DNA from: an uncultured Ectothiorhodospiraceae bacterium
GTDB taxonomy: Bacteria; Pseudomonadota; Gammaproteobacteria; XJ16; Halofilaceae
Assembly: GCA_913055615.1 (NCBI GenBank)
Contig: CAJXKK010000026.1
Location: 1-35,813 of the forward strand
Reading direction: 5' to 3'
Length of the DNA stretch: 35,813 nucleotides
Shown one piece after another: positions 1,824 to 17,629 of this stretch (position 1 is its first letter; every line of letters starts with the position of its first letter). Below the pieces are notes generated by a model. The model searched no databases and had not been told where the DNA came from. It was given only the letters and a program-made list of their open reading frames with translations. Both the position numbers and the translations under genes were made by a program.

Positions 1824-3206
1824 TCACAACAACATCCGCCGCGTGTCCGAGAGGAGGCGGCCGACGTAGGTGGTGAAGCGGGCGGCGTCGGCGCCGTCGA
1901 TGACGCGGTGATCGTAGGACAGCGACAGCGGTAGCATCAGGCGCGGGACGAATTCCTCGCCGTTCCAGACCGGCTCCGTGCTCGCCTTGGACACGCCCAG
2001 GATCGCGACCTCCGGTGCGTTGACGATCGGCGTGAACGCCGTGCCGCCGACGCCGCCGAGGCTCGATATCGAGATGCAACCGCCCTTCATCTGTTTCGGC
2101 GAGAGTTTCTTGTCGCGCGCCGCCTGGCTGATATCCATCAGTTCGCGCGCGAGATCATTCAGGCTCTTGCGATCGACGTCGCGCAGGACCGGCACGACCA
2201 GCCCATCGGGCGTGTCGACCGCCACACCGACATGGAAATACTTCTTGAAAATCAGCTTCTCGCCAGCCGGGTCGAGCGAGCTGTTGAAGCGCGGGAACTC
2301 GCGCAGCGCAGATACCATCGCCTTGATCAGGAACGAGACCAGCGTGATCTTCACGCTGCTGTCCCTGTTCTCGGCGTTCAGTTCCTTGCGGAAGGCCTCG
2401 AGATCGGTGATATCCGCCTTGTCGAACTGCGTGACGTGCGGGACCGTGACCCAGTTGCGGTGCAGGTTCTGACCGGTCAGCTTGTTGATCTTCGTCAGCG
2501 GTTTCGTCTCGATCTCGCCGAACTCGCTGAAATCGATCTCCGGCATCGGCGGCACGCCGAGACCACCACCGGCAGCGGCGGCCGGCGCCTCCATTGCCTG
2601 CTTCACGTGGGCCTTTACGTCCTCCTTGAGCACGCGCCCCTTGCGCCCGGAACCGGTCACCTGCGTGAGATCGGCCCCGAGTTCGCGCGCGAACCGGCGG
2701 ACCCCGGGGGAGGCGTGGGCCTTGAGGTGTTTTTCCTGCTCGATGTGGGCGGTCGGCGAACCGCGCTCGCGCCCGGCCGGCTTCGGCGGTTCGGTCGGTT
2801 CCTCGCCCGCCGGGGCCGTATCCTTCGACGCAGCCTCTTCCTTGTTCGCGCCGGGGGCCTCGTCGTCGGCCTTTTCCGAAGTCTTCTCATCGGCGGATTC
2901 CTCCGCCGCCGGCTCCGCGTCGCCCCCATCCGAATCCGCTTCATCACCGCCGCTCGCACCTTGTTCGCCGGCCTCGAGCGTCAGAATGGTGTCGCCTTCC
3001 TTCACCTTCTGACCGACCTCCACCTTCACTTCCTTGACGGTGCCGCCCTCGGGCGCGGGGATCTCCATCGAGGCCTTGTCGGACTCGAGCGTGATCAGGG
3101 AGTCCTCCGCCTCGATCGTGTCACCCGGCGATACGAGCACCTCGATGATCTCGACCTCGTCGAAATCGCCGACGTCCGGTACGGGAATGTCCTTGGTCTG
3201 GCTCAT
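1824..3206 (-). CDS. aceF: Pyruvate dehydrogenase E2, dihydrolipoyl acetyltransferase
   Basis: This E2 core subunit transfers acetyl groups from lipoamide to CoA. It has 460 residues, short for the family because it has only one lipoyl domain (residues 1-80, K44) where E. coli has three. A long acidic Glu/Ala/Pro linker spans about 82-150. The peripheral subunit-binding domain lies at about 159-200 (SPGVRRFARELGADL). The acetyltransferase domain runs from about 235 to the end and carries the active-site motif DHRVIDG with H433 and D437. The start ATG is shared in sequence with lpdA and is preceded by a GGA about ten bases upstream. It follows aceE by 241 bp. That long gap is unusual inside an operon and is mostly a 152-bp inverted-repeat element. 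The lipoyl-domain copy on E3 may add to the swinging-arm count; that is inference. Confidence 0.97.
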   Translation of the reverse strand: MSQTKDIPVPDVGDFDEVEIIEVLVSPGDTIEAEDSLITLESDKASMEIPAPEGGTVKEVKVEVGQKVKEGDTILTLEAGEQGASGGDEADSDGGDAEPAAEESADEKTSEKADDEAPGANKEEAASKDTAPAGEEPTEPPKPAGRERGSPTAHIEQEKHLKAHASPGVRRFARELGADLTQVTGSGRKGRVLKEDVKAHVKQAMEAPAAAAGGGLGVPPMPEIDFSEFGEIETKPLTKINKLTGQNLHRNWVTVPHVTQFDKADITDLEAFRKELNAENRDSSVKITLVSFLIKAMVSALREFPRFNSSLDPAGEKLIFKKYFHVGVAVDTPDGLVVPVLRDVDRKSLNDLARELMDISQAARDKKLSPKQMKGGCISISSLGGVGGTAFTPIVNAPEVAILGVSKASTEPVWNGEEFVPRLMLPLSLSYDHRVIDGADAARFTTYVGRLLSDTRRMLL

Positions 3207-8802: not shown

Positions 8803-9627
8803 TCAGACCGCCCGGCGCTCGACTTCGACGTCGAGGCAATAGCCTCGGCCCCAGACCGTAACGATGACGCGCGGCCGTGACGGCTCGGTCTCGACTTTCT
8901 TGCGCAGTCGTCGCACCTGATTGTCGATCGTGCGATCGAAGGGGCGCCCCTCGCGCCCGCAGGTCATCTTGAGGAGCTCGTCGCGCCCGAACACGCGTCC
9001 GGGATTGCGCAGGAAGACCATCAGCAGATCATATTCCGCCGGGGTCAGTTCGTGCCTCAGCTCGCCGGATGCGGATACGAGGCACTTCCTGCGGCGCTCC
9101 ACGCACCACTGATCAAAGGTGATGAGCCCGGTCTCACTGGACACGGTTTCCGGCGGCGGTATCGCATGGAGCAGACGCAGGATTGCTCTGATCCGGGCGA
9201 CGAGTTCGCGCGGGTTGAACGGTTTGACGACATAATCGTTCGCCCCGATTTCCAGCCCGACGACCCGGTCAGTGTCCTCGGTCTTGGCGGTCAGGAAGAT
9301 CACCGGCGTCTCGCGCGTGTCACGCAGATGTCGGCAGAGTGAAATACCGTCCTCCCCGGGCATCATGATATCGAGCACGGCCAGATCGATATCATTGTCC
9401 GCGGCGATCGCTCGTGCCTGGACGGCGCTGGCGGCGGTCAGCACCTGGAACCCGTTGTGCTCCAGGTATTCCTTCAGTGAGTCGCGGATTTCCCGGTGGT
9501 CGTCGACGACCAGAATCGTAGTGACGCGTTCACTGGCCACACGCGCGCCCGGCCCGAGGTGGCCTGCCCGATTAACGCGGTTTTGGCGAGCATCTGGGTG
9601 GGAAGCCGGATGATCTTGGGTGTCCAT
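8803..9627 (-). CDS. OmpR/PhoB-family two-component response regulator
   Basis: A 274-residue transcription regulator. The receiver domain spans about 37-155: acidic pocket D42/D43, phosphoacceptor D86 in LDIMMPGEDG, T113 and K135 in VKPFNP. The C-terminal winged helix (about 170-270) contains LTPAEYDLLMVFL, the recognition-helix stretch FDRTIDNQVRRLRKKVE and the wing VWGRGYCLDV. The ATG at 9627 adds an unusual 35-residue polar N-terminal extension before the receiver. An internal GTG at 9540 would remove most of it but lacks a ribosome site, whereas the ATG has AGGT four bases upstream. A hybrid kinase starts 570 bp away on the other strand, so the two probably form a divergent pair. The signal and target genes cannot be told from the sequence. 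Confidence 0.93.
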   Translation of the reverse strand: MDTQDHPASHPDARQNRVNRAGHLGPGARVASERVTTILVVDDHREIRDSLKEYLEHNGFQVLTAASAVQARAIAADNDIDLAVLDIMMPGEDGISLCRHLRDTRETPVIFLTAKTEDTDRVVGLEIGANDYVVKPFNPRELVARIRAILRLLHAIPPPETVSSETGLITFDQWCVERRRKCLVSASGELRHELTPAEYDLLMVFLRNPGRVFGRDELLKMTCGREGRPFDRTIDNQVRRLRKKVETEPSRPRVIVTVWGRGYCLDVEVERRAV

Positions 9628-10197: not shown

Positions 10198-11961
10198 ATG
10201 GCCGAGATGTTCGACGCGGACCCGAAGGCCCTCCCGGCAGATTATTCCGCGATCTCGAATGAATTCGTCCACATGCTCTTCCAGAACGTCCCGCTGGTCC
10301 TCGTGCCCGCCATTGTGGTGATGGCGCTGACTGTGGGGCTGCTCTATCCGTATGTGCCGACCACCACCCTTGTGCTCTGGTCTGCCGCGGTCGTCGTGAC
10401 GCTGCTCGCCCGGTGGCCGATCTACCTGGGTTATCGGCACCGGTCCGGGGACGCCTCGAGCCTCCGGCGCTGGGCCCACCTGTATACCACCGCGGCGTTC
10501 TGCGCCGGACTCACCTGGGGCCTGCTCCCGGTACTGTTCCTGGATATCCAGCAGCCGGCCGTGTTTATCGGTATCAGCGTCGTCGTGGTCGGGATATCCG
10601 CCGGGATGATCTGGTTTTACGCCTGTTGGCCGCCCGCCTTCATCGCGTTTACGACGCCCGTATTGCTTATGTACGCCCTGAGCGTCATGCGCTTCGGCGA
10701 GGCGTACACAATGATCGGCGCGATGGGTCTGGTCGTTTATGGGGTCTACATGTGGCTGGTGCTGCTCTCGTATGGCCGCTTGCGACGCAGCGTGCTGACG
10801 CAGTTCTACAACGAGCATCTCGCCAGGAGTCTCGGTGCGGAGAAAGCGCGTGCGGAAGAGGCGAATCAGGCCAAATCCCAGCTGCTGGCCGCGATCAGCC
10901 ACGATCTGCGCCAGCCCCTGCAATCGATCCGGCTCTATACGGATCTGCTGCAGCAGAAATCGGCGGCCGCCGGTGTGGACGACCTGTGTGAAAAAATTGA
11001 GCACTCGGTCGGCGCGTTGACCGGGATGTTCAACCAACTCCTCGATATGACCCGCATGGACGCGCGTTCGATCGACGTCGAATTCCAGCGGGTCGAGCTT
11101 GAGCGCCTCGCGGAGCGTGTCTACTCGCAGTTCATTCCCATGGCCGACCAGAAAGGTATCGGCCTCGAGGTCGATTGCCCGGATGTATGGGCATGGGCGG
11201 ATCCGGTCCTGCTTGGACGCGTCCTTGATAACCTGGTCACGAACGCGCTGCGTTACACGGAGGAGGGCGACGTCTGCGTCGTCTTCGCCCGTGTGGGCGG
11301 CTGGATCGAGATCAACGTCCTTGACTCGGGGCCGGGCATCCCGCTCGCGGAGCGTCAGCGTGTGTTCGAGGAGTTCTATCAACTGCACAACGAGTCGCGG
11401 CAGCGCAGCGAAGGACTCGGCATCGGCCTCGCCATCGTGCGGCGTCTGTGCACGCTGATGGACATCGGCGTCGAGATCATTCCGACAGAAGGGGGTGGCA
11501 CGCGTGTGCGCCTGCGGCTGCCGGCCGCTGAACCCGAGCCGGTGCCGAAGGCGCAGGCGCCGTCGCCGATCGACAGCCAGCGCCTGGCTGGCCTGCACGT
11601 CATGGTCATCGAAGACGACCCGGAAGTCCGTGTCGCCATGGAGGAAACACTGGCCAGCAGCGGCTGCCACGTCTCGGGCTATGCCTGCGGCGAAACGGCG
11701 GTGGCGGGGCTGGATCCGGCCGATCCACCGGCAGCGGTGGTCTCCGACATCCGCCTGTCCGGCAATCTCGATGGACATCGCGTCGTGACGATCCTGAGCG
11801 AGCGTGTCGGGCGTGCAGTGCCCGCCGTTTTGATCACCAGTGGGCCAGCCCCCGCGGATATCGGTACCGGGGCGGAGCGCGGGCCCGAGATCCTCCTCAA
11901 ACCGGTGCATGCCGATGCCCTGCTCGCGAGCGTTGCCGGTTGCGTTGGCGAGGGCTTGTGA
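10198..11961 (+). CDS. Hybrid sensor histidine kinase, multi-pass membrane, with C-terminal receiver
   Basis: A 587-residue sensor kinase. Residues about 31-192 hold six or so hydrophobic helices with no obvious periplasmic or PAS sensor domain, so the signal may be read in the membrane. A short coiled linker leads to the H-box AISHDLRQPLQS with phosphorylatable His235. The N-box (DNLVTNALRYT), G1 (DSGPGIP) and G2 (GLGIGLAI) follow. A Pro-rich linker (about 440-460) joins a receiver domain with EDD near 475, phosphoacceptor D517 and LLKPV. The SHDLRQPLQ-type H-box is typical of a group of hybrid kinases that act in multi-kinase networks. It is divergent from the OmpR-type regulator at 8803. 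Whether it phosphorylates that protein or sequesters phosphate on its own receiver cannot be told. Confidence 0.93.
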   Translation: MAEMFDADPKALPADYSAISNEFVHMLFQNVPLVLVPAIVVMALTVGLLYPYVPTTTLVLWSAAVVVTLLARWPIYLGYRHRSGDASSLRRWAHLYTTAAFCAGLTWGLLPVLFLDIQQPAVFIGISVVVVGISAGMIWFYACWPPAFIAFTTPVLLMYALSVMRFGEAYTMIGAMGLVVYGVYMWLVLLSYGRLRRSVLTQFYNEHLARSLGAEKARAEEANQAKSQLLAAISHDLRQPLQSIRLYTDLLQQKSAAAGVDDLCEKIEHSVGALTGMFNQLLDMTRMDARSIDVEFQRVELERLAERVYSQFIPMADQKGIGLEVDCPDVWAWADPVLLGRVLDNLVTNALRYTEEGDVCVVFARVGGWIEINVLDSGPGIPLAERQRVFEEFYQLHNESRQRSEGLGIGLAIVRRLCTLMDIGVEIIPTEGGGTRVRLRLPAAEPEPVPKAQAPSPIDSQRLAGLHVMVIEDDPEVRVAMEETLASSGCHVSGYACGETAVAGLDPADPPAAVVSDIRLSGNLDGHRVVTILSERVGRAVPAVLITSGPAPADIGTGAERGPEILLKPVHADALLASVAGCVGEGL

Positions 11962-12128: not shown

Positions 12129-13943
12129 ATGACCCTGCTGTACGAGGCCGCCATATTTCTCGCTGCCGCGGTCGTCGCGGTGCCGCTGTTCCGCCGGATC
12201 GGCTTCGGCTCGGTGCTCGGTTATCTGGCGGCCGGCCTCGCGATCGGGCCGCACGGCTTTGGGCTGATCACCGACGTCGAGGACATCCTCAAGTTCTCCA
12301 AGATCGGCGTCGTGCTGCTGCTGTTCATCATCGGCCTCGAGCTGCAGCCGGCGCGGTTGTGGGTGCTGCGCCGCAATGTCTTCGGCCTTGGCTCGCTGCA
12401 GTTGCTCGCCTGCTCGGGGGCGCTCGGCACCGCCGCGTGGATGCTCGGGCTGTCGCCCGGTGCCGCATTGGTGGTAGGCGTGGGCCTGGCGTTCTCCTCC
12501 ACGGCACTCGTGCTGCAGTCGCTGGCCGAGCGCGAGGCCCTGACCACGCGTCACGGCCGCGCCGCGTTCGCCATCCTGCTGTTCAAGTACATCGCGCTGC
12601 TGCCGCTGCTCGCGGTGCTGCCCATGCTGGGCGGCGGGGCCGACGGCCTGGAGCCGCGTGCGCTCGCGATCGACACCGTAATCAGCCTCGCCGTCATCGC
12701 CGCGATCGTGGCGGGCGGGCATGTCGCCCTGCGCCCGGTCTTCCGGCTGGTGGCGGCGACCGGCACGCACGAGACGTTCGCGGCCATGGCCCTGCTGGTG
12801 GTCATCGGTTCCGCGCTGGCGGTCGATGCGACCGGCCTGTCGATGGGCGTGGGCGCGCTGGTCGCCGGCGTGCTGCTGGCCGACTCGGAGTTCCGCCACG
12901 AAATCGAAGCGGACATCGAGCCGTTCAAGGGGCTGCTGCTCGGGCTGTTCTTCATCGCCGTGGGCATGTCGGCGGACCTCGGGCTGGTGGTCGAACAGCC
13001 GGCCGTGGTCTTCGGCCTGGCCGGCGGTCTGATCGCCATCAAGCTGGTGCTCATCTACTCGATCGGCCGAGCCTGGGGGCTCGGCGACGGCCAGGCGCGC
13101 TCGCTCGCGGCGGTCCTCCCGCAGGGCGGCGAGCTGGCCTTCGTCGTGTTCTCCTCCGCCGCCCAGGAGGGCGTGCTCAGCGCCACCGAGGTCGATTACC
13201 TGATCGCCGCGGTGACGCTGTCCATGGTCGCCACGCCGCTGACCGTGCTGTTCAACCAGCGCGTGCTGGCACCGCGGCTGGACCGCTCCGACGAGCGCAT
13301 GTACGACACCATCGACACGCCCGCGCCCGGCGTGATCATCGCCGGCTTCGGGCGCTTTGGGCAGATCGTCGGGCGCGTGCTGCACAGCGCCAACGTCCCG
13401 TTCACCGCGCTGGAGATCAATCCGGTGCAGGTCGATTTCGTGCGCCGTTACGGCAACCGCCTGTATTACGGCGACGCCTCGCGCATCGATCTGCTGCGCT
13501 CCGCGGACGCCGGCGAGGCGCGCGCGTTCGTGCTCGCCATCGACGATGTCGAGGCCTCGGTGCGCACGGCCGAGGCGGTGCGTCGGCATTTCCCGAACCT
13601 GCCCATCTTCGCGCGGGCGCGGAACCGCCAGCACGCGTTCCGCCTGCGGGATCTCGGCGCCCGCATCGTCGTGCGCGAGACCTTCCCCTCGAGCCTGGAG
13701 CTGGGCGAGGGCGTGCTCGCCTGGGCGACCGGCGACGAGGAGGAGGCGCGCCAGGCGGCTGCCGGCTTCCGCGAGCACGACGAGGCGATCCTGGAGCGCC
13801 AGTACGCCGTCCATCGCGAGCGCGACGCCCTGCAGCTGTCGACCAGCCAGGCGGCGGACGAACTGGAGGGGCTGTTCGAGCGCGACGACGCCGAAGACAC
13901 CACGCCGACCGATCCCGACGCCCAGCCCGACGGCGGGCGCTGA
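12129..13943 (+). CDS. KefB/KefC-like CPA2 monovalent cation:proton antiporter with RCK domain, altered ion site
   Basis: A 604-residue inner membrane protein. Residues about 1-385 form the CPA2 transporter domain. Residues about 400-520 form an RCK/TrkA-N domain with the Rossmann motif AGFGRFGQ and a C-terminal RETFPSSLELGEGVLAWATG region like that of KefC. An acidic tail ends the protein. The match to E. coli KefC is close by memory: FKGLLLGLFFIAVGMS, QGGELAFVVF and the GDASRIDLLRSADA segment. One thing is odd. In KefB/KefC the fifth-helix motif is LLFQDIA, with the Asp needed for ion binding. Here it is LLFKYIA (K153, Y154, codons 12585-12590). The ATG has GGGAGG about nine bases upstream. 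It may still be a gated channel or transporter of another kind. No KefF/KefG partner is beside it. Confidence 0.9.
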   Translation: MTLLYEAAIFLAAAVVAVPLFRRIGFGSVLGYLAAGLAIGPHGFGLITDVEDILKFSKIGVVLLLFIIGLELQPARLWVLRRNVFGLGSLQLLACSGALGTAAWMLGLSPGAALVVGVGLAFSSTALVLQSLAEREALTTRHGRAAFAILLFKYIALLPLLAVLPMLGGGADGLEPRALAIDTVISLAVIAAIVAGGHVALRPVFRLVAATGTHETFAAMALLVVIGSALAVDATGLSMGVGALVAGVLLADSEFRHEIEADIEPFKGLLLGLFFIAVGMSADLGLVVEQPAVVFGLAGGLIAIKLVLIYSIGRAWGLGDGQARSLAAVLPQGGELAFVVFSSAAQEGVLSATEVDYLIAAVTLSMVATPLTVLFNQRVLAPRLDRSDERMYDTIDTPAPGVIIAGFGRFGQIVGRVLHSANVPFTALEINPVQVDFVRRYGNRLYYGDASRIDLLRSADAGEARAFVLAIDDVEASVRTAEAVRRHFPNLPIFARARNRQHAFRLRDLGARIVVRETFPSSLELGEGVLAWATGDEEEARQAAAGFREHDEAILERQYAVHRERDALQLSTSQAADELEGLFERDDAEDTTPTDPDAQPDGGR

Positions 13944-14020: not shown

Positions 14021-15145
14021 ATGCATTACGATTTCGACGAACCGATCGATCGCCGCGACACCGCCAGCGACAAGTGGGACCGCTTCCGCGATCGCGACAT
14101 CCTGCCGATGTGGGTGGCGGATATGGACTTCCGCGCGCCGCCGGCGGTACTCGATGCCCTGCACGCGCGCGTCGATCATGGCGTGTTCGGCTACACCAGC
14201 GCGCCCGACGAGCTGGTCGATGCCACCGTGGCGATGCTGCGCGCGAGTCACGGCTGGCAGGTCGAGCCGGAGTGGCTGGTCTGGCTGCCGGGGCTCGTCC
14301 CGGGCATCCATCTGACGGCCGCCGCCGTCGGTGGGCGCGGCGACGCCGTGATGACCTCCACGCCCGTCTATCCGCCGTTCCGGGCGGCGCCGGCGCGGGC
14401 GGGGCGCGAGCGCATCGAGGTGCCGCTGGCCGCCCCCGATGGGCGTATCGACTTCGACCGGCTCGAGGCGGCCGTCACCGAGCGCACGCGGCTGCTGCTG
14501 CTGTGCAACCCGCAGAACCCGACCGGGCGCGTGTATCGAAGCGAGGAACTCGAGGCGCTGGCGGCCTTCTGCGAGCGCCACGATCTGGTCATCTGCAGCG
14601 ACGAAATCCACTGCGCCCTGATCCTCGACCCGGAGCGCGGCCACGTCCCGATGGCGACCCTGGGTCCGGAGATCGCACGGCGCACGATCACCCTGATGGC
14701 GCCGAGCAAGACCTACAACATCGCCGGCCTCGGCTGTTCGCTCGCGATCATCCCGGATCCCACCCTGCGCCGGCGCTTCCAGTCCGTGCGGGCCGGTTTC
14801 TTGCCCGGCGTGAACGCGCTCGGTTTCACCGCCGCGCTGGCTGCCTGGCGCGACAGCGATGACTGGCACGACGCGCTGATCGACTACCTGCGCGGCAATC
14901 GCGATCGCGTGGCCGCGGCCATCGCCGGGCATCCGCGGCTGCACATGGCCACGCCCGAGGCGACCTACCTCGCCTGGCTGGATGCGCGCGAGCTCGGCGT
15001 CGATGACCCGGCGGCCGCCGCGGAGGCCGTCGGGGTGGGCCTCTCCGACGGCGCCGACTTCGGTGCCCCCGGCTACCTGCGGCTCAACTTTGGCTGCCCC
15101 CGCGCCACGCTCGAAGAGGGCCTGCGCCGTCTGGCCCGGCTGTAG
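14021..15145 (+). CDS. PatB/MalY-type pyridoxal-phosphate C-S lyase (cystathionine beta-lyase-like aminotransferase)
   Basis: A 374-residue fold-type I PLP enzyme. The N-terminus DFDEPIDRRDTASDKWD and LPMWVADMDF are diagnostic of the MalY/PatB subfamily, which cleaves the C-S bond of cystathionine or cysteine conjugates to give pyruvate, ammonia and a thiol. Other conserved parts are CNPQNPTGRVY, SDEIHCALIL and the PLP lysine K230 in APSKTYNIAGL. Members of this family in Bacillus (PatB) and E. coli (MalY) differ in side roles, so the substrate is not certain. The frame is open far upstream inside the preceding gene, but the ATG at 14021 gives the family N-terminus. It follows the KefC-like gene by 77 bp and precedes the channel gene by 54 bp on the same strand. 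Confidence 0.92.
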   Translation: MHYDFDEPIDRRDTASDKWDRFRDRDILPMWVADMDFRAPPAVLDALHARVDHGVFGYTSAPDELVDATVAMLRASHGWQVEPEWLVWLPGLVPGIHLTAAAVGGRGDAVMTSTPVYPPFRAAPARAGRERIEVPLAAPDGRIDFDRLEAAVTERTRLLLLCNPQNPTGRVYRSEELEALAAFCERHDLVICSDEIHCALILDPERGHVPMATLGPEIARRTITLMAPSKTYNIAGLGCSLAIIPDPTLRRRFQSVRAGFLPGVNALGFTAALAAWRDSDDWHDALIDYLRGNRDRVAAAIAGHPRLHMATPEATYLAWLDARELGVDDPAAAAEAVGVGLSDGADFGAPGYLRLNFGCPRATLEEGLRRLARL

Positions 15146-15199: not shown

Positions 15200-17629
15200 A
15201 TGCCCCGTTCCCCGTTGCCCGTCTTTGTCGCCCTGCTGCTGGCGCTCCTGTCGCCGCTGGCGGCGGCATCGGCCCATGCCGACGGTGCCATACCCGCGGA
15301 GGAGGTCCACCAGGCGGAAGCCCAACTCACGGCGATCAAGCAGGCGCTGGATTCCGCGGAGGCCCCGGAGCGTGCGGCCCTGCGCGAGTATCTCGGTGAG
15401 ATCCCGGGCGCCCGGGATCTCGCCGCGGAATGCATCGAGCGCAACGAGAGCCGTCTGGCGAATATCGAGGAGAGCCTCGAGACACTCGGCGAATCGGGAC
15501 CGCAGGAGGCCGCGGGGGTACAGCAGCAGCGGGCCAACTTCCAGCAGCAGAAGCTCGACGCCGAGAACCAGCTGCAGCTCTGCCAGGTGATCAAGCTGCG
15601 CGCCGACCAGCTGCAGGACCGCGTGACCCGCCTGCAGCAGGCCATCCTCACGGACCGGCTGGCCCTGCGTGAACAGCCCGCCTGGGAGATCATCGGGGAG
15701 AACCTGCGCGAGCCGGGGCGCCTGTGGAGTACCGCGCGCCTGTTCCTGCTGCGCGAGAGCGGCCTCGACACCCTCAACTGGATCGAGTTCATCGGCCTGC
15801 TGGGCCTCGCCCTGGTCGGCATTGGCGGCTCGCTCTATGTGCGCGCGCCGATGTTCGCAATGGCCGAACGCGTACCCGAGACCGGGACCATCGCCGCCGG
15901 CTTCCTGCGCTCGCTGCTCGCCTGCGCGGCGAACACACTGCCGGCGCTGGTCACCTCCGTGGCGGTGGCGCTGTACCTCACCGTGGTCGGCGTTCGCGAG
16001 GAGGGTTGGGCCTTCATCACGCTGCTGTCGTACGGCCTGTCCGGCTACTTCCTCTTCAGCCTGGCCGTGAGCCTGTTCCTGGCACCGTGCCCGCCGGCAA
16101 AGCCCTACCTGCCCGCTCCGGCGCCGGTCCTGCGTTCGCTGACGCGCCGCCTGCGCGTCCTCGCGATCGTGGTGCTCACGGTCTCGGTGTTCTCGGCCAC
16201 GCTGGTCGTGGAGAGCTTCCCCGAACCGGTGCGCGATCTGCTGCGCCTGCTCGTGGCCACGCTACTCATCATCAATCTCACGCGGATCATCTGGCTGGCC
16301 GGGGATCTGCTGCACTGGCACGACACGCACCTGCCGCGCATTTTTCTCACCGCCGGCATGCTCATCGCGCTCGGGGCCGAGTGGCTCGGTTACCTGGAAC
16401 TCTCCGAGTACATCATCACCGGCATCGCCGGCACTATCGTCGTGTTCTGGGGCAGCTGGTTCATCTGGCGCCTGTTCGGCGAGCTGTTCGACGGCCTCGA
16501 TGAAGGCCGCCGCCGCTGGCACCGTTCCATACGCCGCTCACTCGGCGTGCGCGCCGATCAGTACATGCCCGGGCTGACCTGGCTGCGCGTGCTGCTGGCG
16601 ATCGTACTCGGGAGCGGTTTCGTGGTGCTCACCCTGCTCATGTGGGGGCTCTCCGATACCGGGCTCGCGCTCATCCTGCCGATGCTCAACGAGGGCATCG
16701 CGCTCGGCGAGTTCGAGATCGTGCCGATCCGTCTGGTGTGGGGGCTGATCGCCCTCATACTGGGCATCGGGGTCACCGGCTGGTTCAAGCAGCGCCTGGA
16801 TCAGCACTGGCTCCGGCGCTCGCGCATGGAGCGCGGCGCGCACGAGGCGCTGGTCACGGTCACCGGTTATCTGGGCGTGGCGCTCGCGCTGATTATCGGG
16901 CTCGCGGTGGCCGGCGTGCAGTTCACCAACCTGGCGATCATCGCGGGCGCGCTCTCGGTCGGTATCGGCTTCGGCCTGCAGAATATCTTCAACAATTTCG
17001 TCTCCGGCCTGATCCTGCTGTTCGAACGCCCCGTAAAGACCAACGACTGGGTCGTGGTCGGCCCGACCGAGGGCTACATCAAGCGCATCAGTATCCGCTC
17101 AACCCAGATCGAGACCTTCGATCGCGCCGACGTGATCGTGCCCAACTCGGAACTGATTCAGGGGCAGGTCACGAACTGGATGCTGCGCGACCCCTTCGGC
17201 CGCGTGATCGTGCCTGTGCGGGTGGTCTACGGGAGCGATCCGGAGCAGGTGCGCGATCTGTTGCTCGGAATCGCCCAGCGGCATTCGCAGGTCGTCAACG
17301 ACGCGCTGCTGGCGCCCACGCCCGTCGTGCTGTTCATGCGGCTCGGCGAATACGCGATGGAGTTCGAGGTCCGCGCCTTCATCCGCGATATCGAGTATTT
17401 CCTCTCGGTGGTGAGCGACCTCAACTTCGAGATCGAACGCATGTTCCGCGAAAACGGCATCGAGATCGCTTATCCGCGCCAGGATATCCACCTGCACCGC
17501 GCCGCCGATGACGGACCGCGTCTGGAACGCGACCCCGGCTCGACCCGCCCCGTGCGCAGCGGCCGCGGCGGCGGCACCGGCGAGATGGGCGACGGCGACT
17601 CACCTGACGGCGGCGCACCCGACGGCTAA
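15200..17629 (+). CDS. Large MscS-family mechanosensitive channel with N-terminal periplasmic domain
   Basis: An 809-residue inner membrane channel expected to release solutes on hypo-osmotic shock. A signal peptide (residues 1-27, ending ASAHA) precedes a periplasmic coiled-coil region rich in Glu and Gln (about 30-155), as in the DUF3772/MscK-like architectures. Many membrane helices run from about 195 to 570. The pore helix and beta domain show the canonical MscS motif at about 580-625, including SVGIGFGLQNIFNNFVSG and FERPVKTNDWV. The C-terminal mixed domain ends near 770, and a Gly/Asp/Arg-rich tail of about 40 residues follows. It is larger than MscS (286) and shorter than MscK (about 1120). 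The ATG precedes a normal signal peptide. The ribosome site is weak. Confidence 0.93.
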   Translation: MPRSPLPVFVALLLALLSPLAAASAHADGAIPAEEVHQAEAQLTAIKQALDSAEAPERAALREYLGEIPGARDLAAECIERNESRLANIEESLETLGESGPQEAAGVQQQRANFQQQKLDAENQLQLCQVIKLRADQLQDRVTRLQQAILTDRLALREQPAWEIIGENLREPGRLWSTARLFLLRESGLDTLNWIEFIGLLGLALVGIGGSLYVRAPMFAMAERVPETGTIAAGFLRSLLACAANTLPALVTSVAVALYLTVVGVREEGWAFITLLSYGLSGYFLFSLAVSLFLAPCPPAKPYLPAPAPVLRSLTRRLRVLAIVVLTVSVFSATLVVESFPEPVRDLLRLLVATLLIINLTRIIWLAGDLLHWHDTHLPRIFLTAGMLIALGAEWLGYLELSEYIITGIAGTIVVFWGSWFIWRLFGELFDGLDEGRRRWHRSIRRSLGVRADQYMPGLTWLRVLLAIVLGSGFVVLTLLMWGLSDTGLALILPMLNEGIALGEFEIVPIRLVWGLIALILGIGVTGWFKQRLDQHWLRRSRMERGAHEALVTVTGYLGVALALIIGLAVAGVQFTNLAIIAGALSVGIGFGLQNIFNNFVSGLILLFERPVKTNDWVVVGPTEGYIKRISIRSTQIETFDRADVIVPNSELIQGQVTNWMLRDPFGRVIVPVRVVYGSDPEQVRDLLLGIAQRHSQVVNDALLAPTPVVLFMRLGEYAMEFEVRAFIRDIEYFLSVVSDLNFEIERMFRENGIEIAYPRQDIHLHRAADDGPRLERDPGSTRPVRSGRGGGTGEMGDGDSPDGGAPDG

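Follow-up and report, generated by a model that had tools for sequence, protein, structure and literature searches.

E. coli KefC (PDB 8BXG, 8BY2 and 9EMB), like KefB, is a glutathione-gated K+/H+ exchanger, and it is switched by glutathione adducts. In E. coli an ancillary gene, that of KefF or KefG, lies beside the exchanger gene, though this feature is not universal. In the available part of the structural work on KefC, a dehydrated K+ is held by the side chains of Gln155 and Asp156, by Thr127 and by the carbonyl of Ser125, and Phe338 forms a hydrophobic lid adjoining the ion (PMC11150392). The same part of that source reports that D156N shows no K+ density, that Q155D abolishes K+ binding and that with T127V clear K+ binding is lost. 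Of CPA sequences, 94% have the Asp, which has repeatedly been shown to be essential, as stated in the accessible part of a wider survey (PMC6181914). With this residue regarded as essential and near-universal in cation/proton antiporters, and with laboratory changes of it or of its neighbour killing binding, a selected lineage that lacks the Asp, has Lys and an altered gate, and keeps its fold and RCK domain would be a natural test of substrate choice in this fold.

A Kef-type protein with Lys-Tyr at the ion site

The window (the whole stretch of 35,813 nucleotides analysed) carries on its forward strand, at 12129-13943, an open reading frame without internal stop for a KefB/C-like CPA2 protein of 604 amino acids. 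Profile searches give 180 bits for PF00999 (Na_H_Exchanger) and 84 bits for PF02254 (TrkA_N), and the score for TIGR00932, the CPA2 antiporters, places it in that family (246.7 bits, cut-off 238.3). It falls below both NCBI equivalog cut-offs for KefC and KefB (NF002924, 677.5 against 752; NF002973, 596.7 against 804). The closest PDB match, by sequence and by fold, is E. coli KefC, with which it shares the fold, the broken TM5 and TM12 and the RCK domain; broken helices are seen in its AlphaFold model (mean pLDDT 80.5, pTM 0.59, 26 rows). The RCK domain (13332-13676, forward strand) has the GxGxxG motif as GFGRFG and retains most residues of the KefC glutathione pocket, among them the equivalents of Q412, R416, R498 and R516. 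The description of the protein in the original prediction, as a KefC look-alike with an intact frame and an RCK domain, is thus borne out.

At 12585-12590, codons AAG and TAC specify Lys153-Tyr154, and a phmmer alignment to 8bxg sets this pair on KefC Q155-D156 without a gap, confirming the predicted replacement of Gln-Asp by Lys-Tyr (KY, as against QD). Its placement in the fifth helix is right in NhaA numbering (TM5), while in KefC numbering, as given in the part of PMC11150392 available, the helix is TM6. Of the DD, ND or QD pair of CPA2 proteins the ion-binding Asp is absent, with Tyr154 in its place. Since the predicted helix (residues 141-168) has neither Asp nor Glu, the Asp has not been displaced to a neighbouring residue; the gap-free alignment rules this out likewise, and so disposes of one of the ways in which the prediction could have failed. 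Where the Kef signature is L-S-S-T...QD...K, the KY protein reads F-S-S-T...KY...K, with the Lys equivalent to K307 present in all three KY proteins described below. The Ser-Ser-Thr turn (S125, S126 and T127 in KefC numbering) and E337 are also retained, and the differences from KefC and KefB are Q155K, D156Y, E60K, F338L and L124F. TtNapA and other CPA2 Na+/H+ antiporters are alike in fold and in having a Lys on TM11, but NapA has a DD pair where the window protein has KY. The QD Kef-like CPA2 transporters of the same class (for example L061, L063, L064 and L008) are 52-56% identical with the same domain order, but all have QD, E60 and F338. Loss of KefC-like K+ binding in the KY proteins is very probable, the D156N and Q155D results for KefC lending the predicted loss of the cation site good support.

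One clade and its wider substitutions

KY is found in all three genomes examined of the order, which belong to one genus: the window genome (G000), G002, whose protein is 97% identical to that of the window, and G001, with 58% identity. Kef matches occur at 84 loci: two that are the window itself, two same-genus KY relatives and 80 with Asp, these last having been chosen by similarity and being mostly from the same class; the residue before the Asp is Gln in nearly all of the 80 and Glu in five. In a tree of 48 rows made with the trait columns removed, the three KY proteins form one group (SH-aLRT 99) nested among QD proteins, the method being a quick one and several deep forks weak. The original prediction had looked for a clade sharing KY with an intact RCK domain, which is what was found, and had allowed that QD in close relatives would undo it; both same-genus relatives carry KY.

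Wider searches added none among the motifs that were read. A degenerate LLFKY.A pattern matched 20 loci in 20 of 398 genomes of the phylum, of which only that of the window is a Kef; as none of the other 19 is, they look like chance. In a genome contig collection 25 relatives were found, none with KY, where one of six degenerate peptides covered KY and entries close to the genome of the window may be missing. No KY relative was found in viral contigs, and the Kef proteins present in plasmid records are all less than 60% identical. Of 369 genomes sampled from the class, 83 gave a match, and the motif was read for the best loci (up to 30), with distant Kefs there outside this scope. The restriction to one genus is what might be expected of a sequencing error, pseudogene or recent mutation. 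This is refuted, and its probability reduced to almost nil, by three separate assemblies, a KY homologue only 58% identical, intact frames and a dN/dS of 0.04.

That ratio comes from the comparison of G000 with G002, where dS for the KY gene is 0.45 and dN/dS 0.044 (membrane part 0.037, RCK domain 0.013); two neighbouring genes, for a PatB-family protein and an MscS-type channel, are both higher, at 0.11 and 0.20. With G001 the KY gene gives 0.55 by a counting method and the PatB gene 0.32 for the same pair, values that are unreliable at such divergence, and the ratio for this pair by itself does not show strong constraint on the KY gene. Between the window and G001 the KY protein has changed more quickly than PatB (58% against 71% identity). 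Around the site, 47 residues are 72% identical between these two, the same as the average over 183 QD pairs (72%), and the core helices, when their identity is set against that of the scaffold helices, fall within the range seen in QD pairs. From these values and the low dN/dS we conclude that the KY membrane domain still performs something that requires its fold. The charged Lys and bulky Tyr are maintained by selection, and the protein probably has a role other than K+ export.

The changes reach beyond the Lys-Tyr pair. When the three KY proteins are aligned with 76 other loci and E. coli KefC (80 rows), 66 columns are conserved in at least 90% of the 77 non-KY rows, and four of these are changed alike in all three KY proteins: E60K, Q155K, D156Y and F338L. 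The residues replaced occur in 74, 72, 77 and 77 of the 77 rows, respectively. By comparison, each of twelve QD sets spanning identities of 0.49 to 0.76 (0.57 for the KY set) has 0, 1 or 2 shared changes of this kind, mostly conservative. In the KY proteins the four replacements are fixed together across three species, with the remainder of the core under strong purifying selection. Conserved columns at the K+ site are changed in 3 of 10 cases against 1 of 56 elsewhere (Fisher p about 0.01, a post hoc value with the site list taken from the KefC paper). In the window the residues concerned, besides the pair itself, are Lys58 at 12300-12302 (E60 of KefC, in TM3) and Leu336 at 13134-13136 (F338, the hydrophobic gate beside K+). 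Two less conserved columns are also specific to the clade: L124F, Phe122 at 12492-12494 in the helix break of TM5 (Phe in 1 of 77 other rows), and A/V159L, Leu157 at 12597-12599 (A159 in KefC; Leu in 0 of 77). Overall the charge rises by about +4, each of the replacements E to K, Q to K and D to Y acting in the same direction. The order of the helices would place E60 in the scaffold domain, in its outer half, on a helix that we take to be the equivalent of one lining the funnels in NhaA. That NhaA helix is described as lining both funnels in the part of the source available (PMC9408914). The original prediction, which stood as to the clade and the loss of the cation site, had overlooked these wider changes (E60K, F338L, L124F and A/V159L), as well as the C-S lyase gene treated below.

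Readings of the altered site

What the KY protein carries and how it is gated we infer from its sequence. The original prediction had offered an ungated channel, a sensor and a carrier for another ion, which stand here as candidates. It keeps a membrane fold of NhaA type and the RCK gate, and appears to have exchanged the K+ site for a positive one. A pocket of Lys153, Lys305 (K307 of KefC), Tyr154 and the Ser-Ser-Thr turn may bind an anion, and sensing of a ligand by the RCK dimer would then cause the anion to be released or exchanged. An anion site is favoured because all the charge changes go in the same direction, the hydroxyl-rich turn and a Tyr stand at the crossover, and the gate is altered. 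CLC-type sites bind chloride by way of Ser and Tyr. This genus-specific, RCK-gated Kef with a positive site, as a carrier or pore for an anion, is the reading we prefer, tentatively and at somewhat less than even chance; that a charge-reversed member of the antiporter superfamily would move the anion along the old K+ pathway under a glutathione-type RCK gate is unlikely. Weighing against an anion, E337 and most acids of the cytoplasmic loop are still present, and a Lys in a buried position might carry no charge; the KefC pocket is suited to a dehydrated cation, and two lysines may simply block it.

The strongest rival is a protein that senses and no longer transports: Lys153, as a tethered cation, would lock the elevator, and the membrane part would serve as scaffold or anchor for an RCK domain that signals the presence of nucleotides or glutathione adducts to a partner. 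An inactive carrier would be in keeping with a permanent positive charge where the ion would sit and with the missing essential Asp. In the comparison of G000 with G002, no part is as constrained as the RCK domain, which speaks for the sensor. It counts for this also that in other transporter folds (ApcT, CaiT) the bound cation is replaced by Lys or Arg. However, the constraint on the core helices matches that in pairs of QD Kefs, beyond the need of a pure scaffold; the gate residue F338 is changed too, which a dead site does not need; and no partner protein has been identified. G000 and G002 carry QD Kef paralogues as well, but G001 (99% complete, 200 contigs) has, besides the KY protein, a single Na_H_Exchanger match, which lacks a Kef-type QD, so that an inactive subunit paired with a QD Kef is unlikely as a general answer. 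Overall, a sensor dead to transport is a rather doubtful but serious candidate.

Two further readings keep ion movement. Retention of S125, S126, T127, K307 and E337 would suit a protein that is still a cation/proton antiporter, the ion or proton being carried by E337 or by a deprotonating Lys. Against it stand the near-universal presence and repeatedly shown essentiality of the Asp, the abolition of KefC K+ binding by Q155D alone and a charge reversal that reaches E60, and this is improbable. The lost coupling Asp and the gate-side changes L124F and F338L could instead have left an RCK-gated pore or leak uncoupled from protons; as elevator proteins rarely turn into open pores, and as conservation of K307 and E337 suggests that the alternating core is kept, this is quite improbable. 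A narrow literature search for Asp-less or anion-carrying antiporters and for CPA2 motif variants returned nothing on point, and to our knowledge no Kef-derived anion carrier or sensor has been described. The KY protein could be one or the other, and brings with it a short list of positions to revert.

The gating ligand and the neighbouring genes

In the preferred reading of an anion released on RCK sensing, the ligand would probably be glutathione or its adducts, within the same thiol or electrophile stress response as a C-S lyase encoded next door. Directly downstream of the KY gene, in all three members of the genus, lies a PatB-family gene on the same strand (14021-15145, forward strand, in the window; TIGR04350, 450.5 bits against a cut-off of 340). 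The gap is 77 bases in the window, 121 at L122 (gene at 12717-13841) and 89 at L123 (7834-8973). The interval separating the two genes was scanned and showed no terminator, a result that does not in itself prove an operon. No PatB relative was found at the other Kef loci, where 64 of the 84 loci had at least 1200 bases downstream and the others less, nor beside the same-class QD Kefs. A gene of KefF/KefG type (Flavodoxin_2) gave no match on the KY-gene contigs of the three genomes; where E. coli KefC and KefB have such an adjoining gene, the KY gene has the PatB C-S lyase instead. Each of the three genomes encodes glutathione synthetase, divided between two contigs in the case of G000. Cysteine S-conjugates are cleaved by C-S lyases, in the part of the source available (PMC11203769), and from this together with the switching of KefC by glutathione adducts a common thiol or electrophile role for the KY protein and PatB is a reasonable guess. 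The three genomes are related, and the gene order may be shared by descent alone; a narrow literature search for a link between KefC and C-S lyases found nothing on point.

At the place of KefC N551 the window protein has Asp, as have all 18 close QD relatives. Since N551D in E. coli KefC weakens inhibition by glutathione, the gating ligand is uncertain, and this whole branch, KY protein and QD relatives together, may respond differently to glutathione. The G001 protein (L007/L123) has His and Ser at KefC positions 262 and 264, where the regulatory HALESDIE loop has Glu and Asp, both of which the window protein retains. E262K alters gating in E. coli KefC (PMC2920069), so regulation may differ within the KY clade.

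Some other neighbours are also shared in part. In G000 and G002 a gene for a mechanosensitive channel of MscK/MscS type (15200-17629 in the window) accompanies the KY and PatB genes, and in G001 PatB is followed by a different gene. In the window a hybrid histidine kinase (10198-11961) lies upstream of the KY gene and is divergent from a response regulator (8803-9627); G002 retains the regulator (66%), but the interval from there to the KY gene showed no relative of the kinase. At 3-1607 and 1824-3206 two adjacent reverse-strand genes have a common N-terminal stretch, presumably the lipoyl domain of two dehydrogenase-complex subunits.
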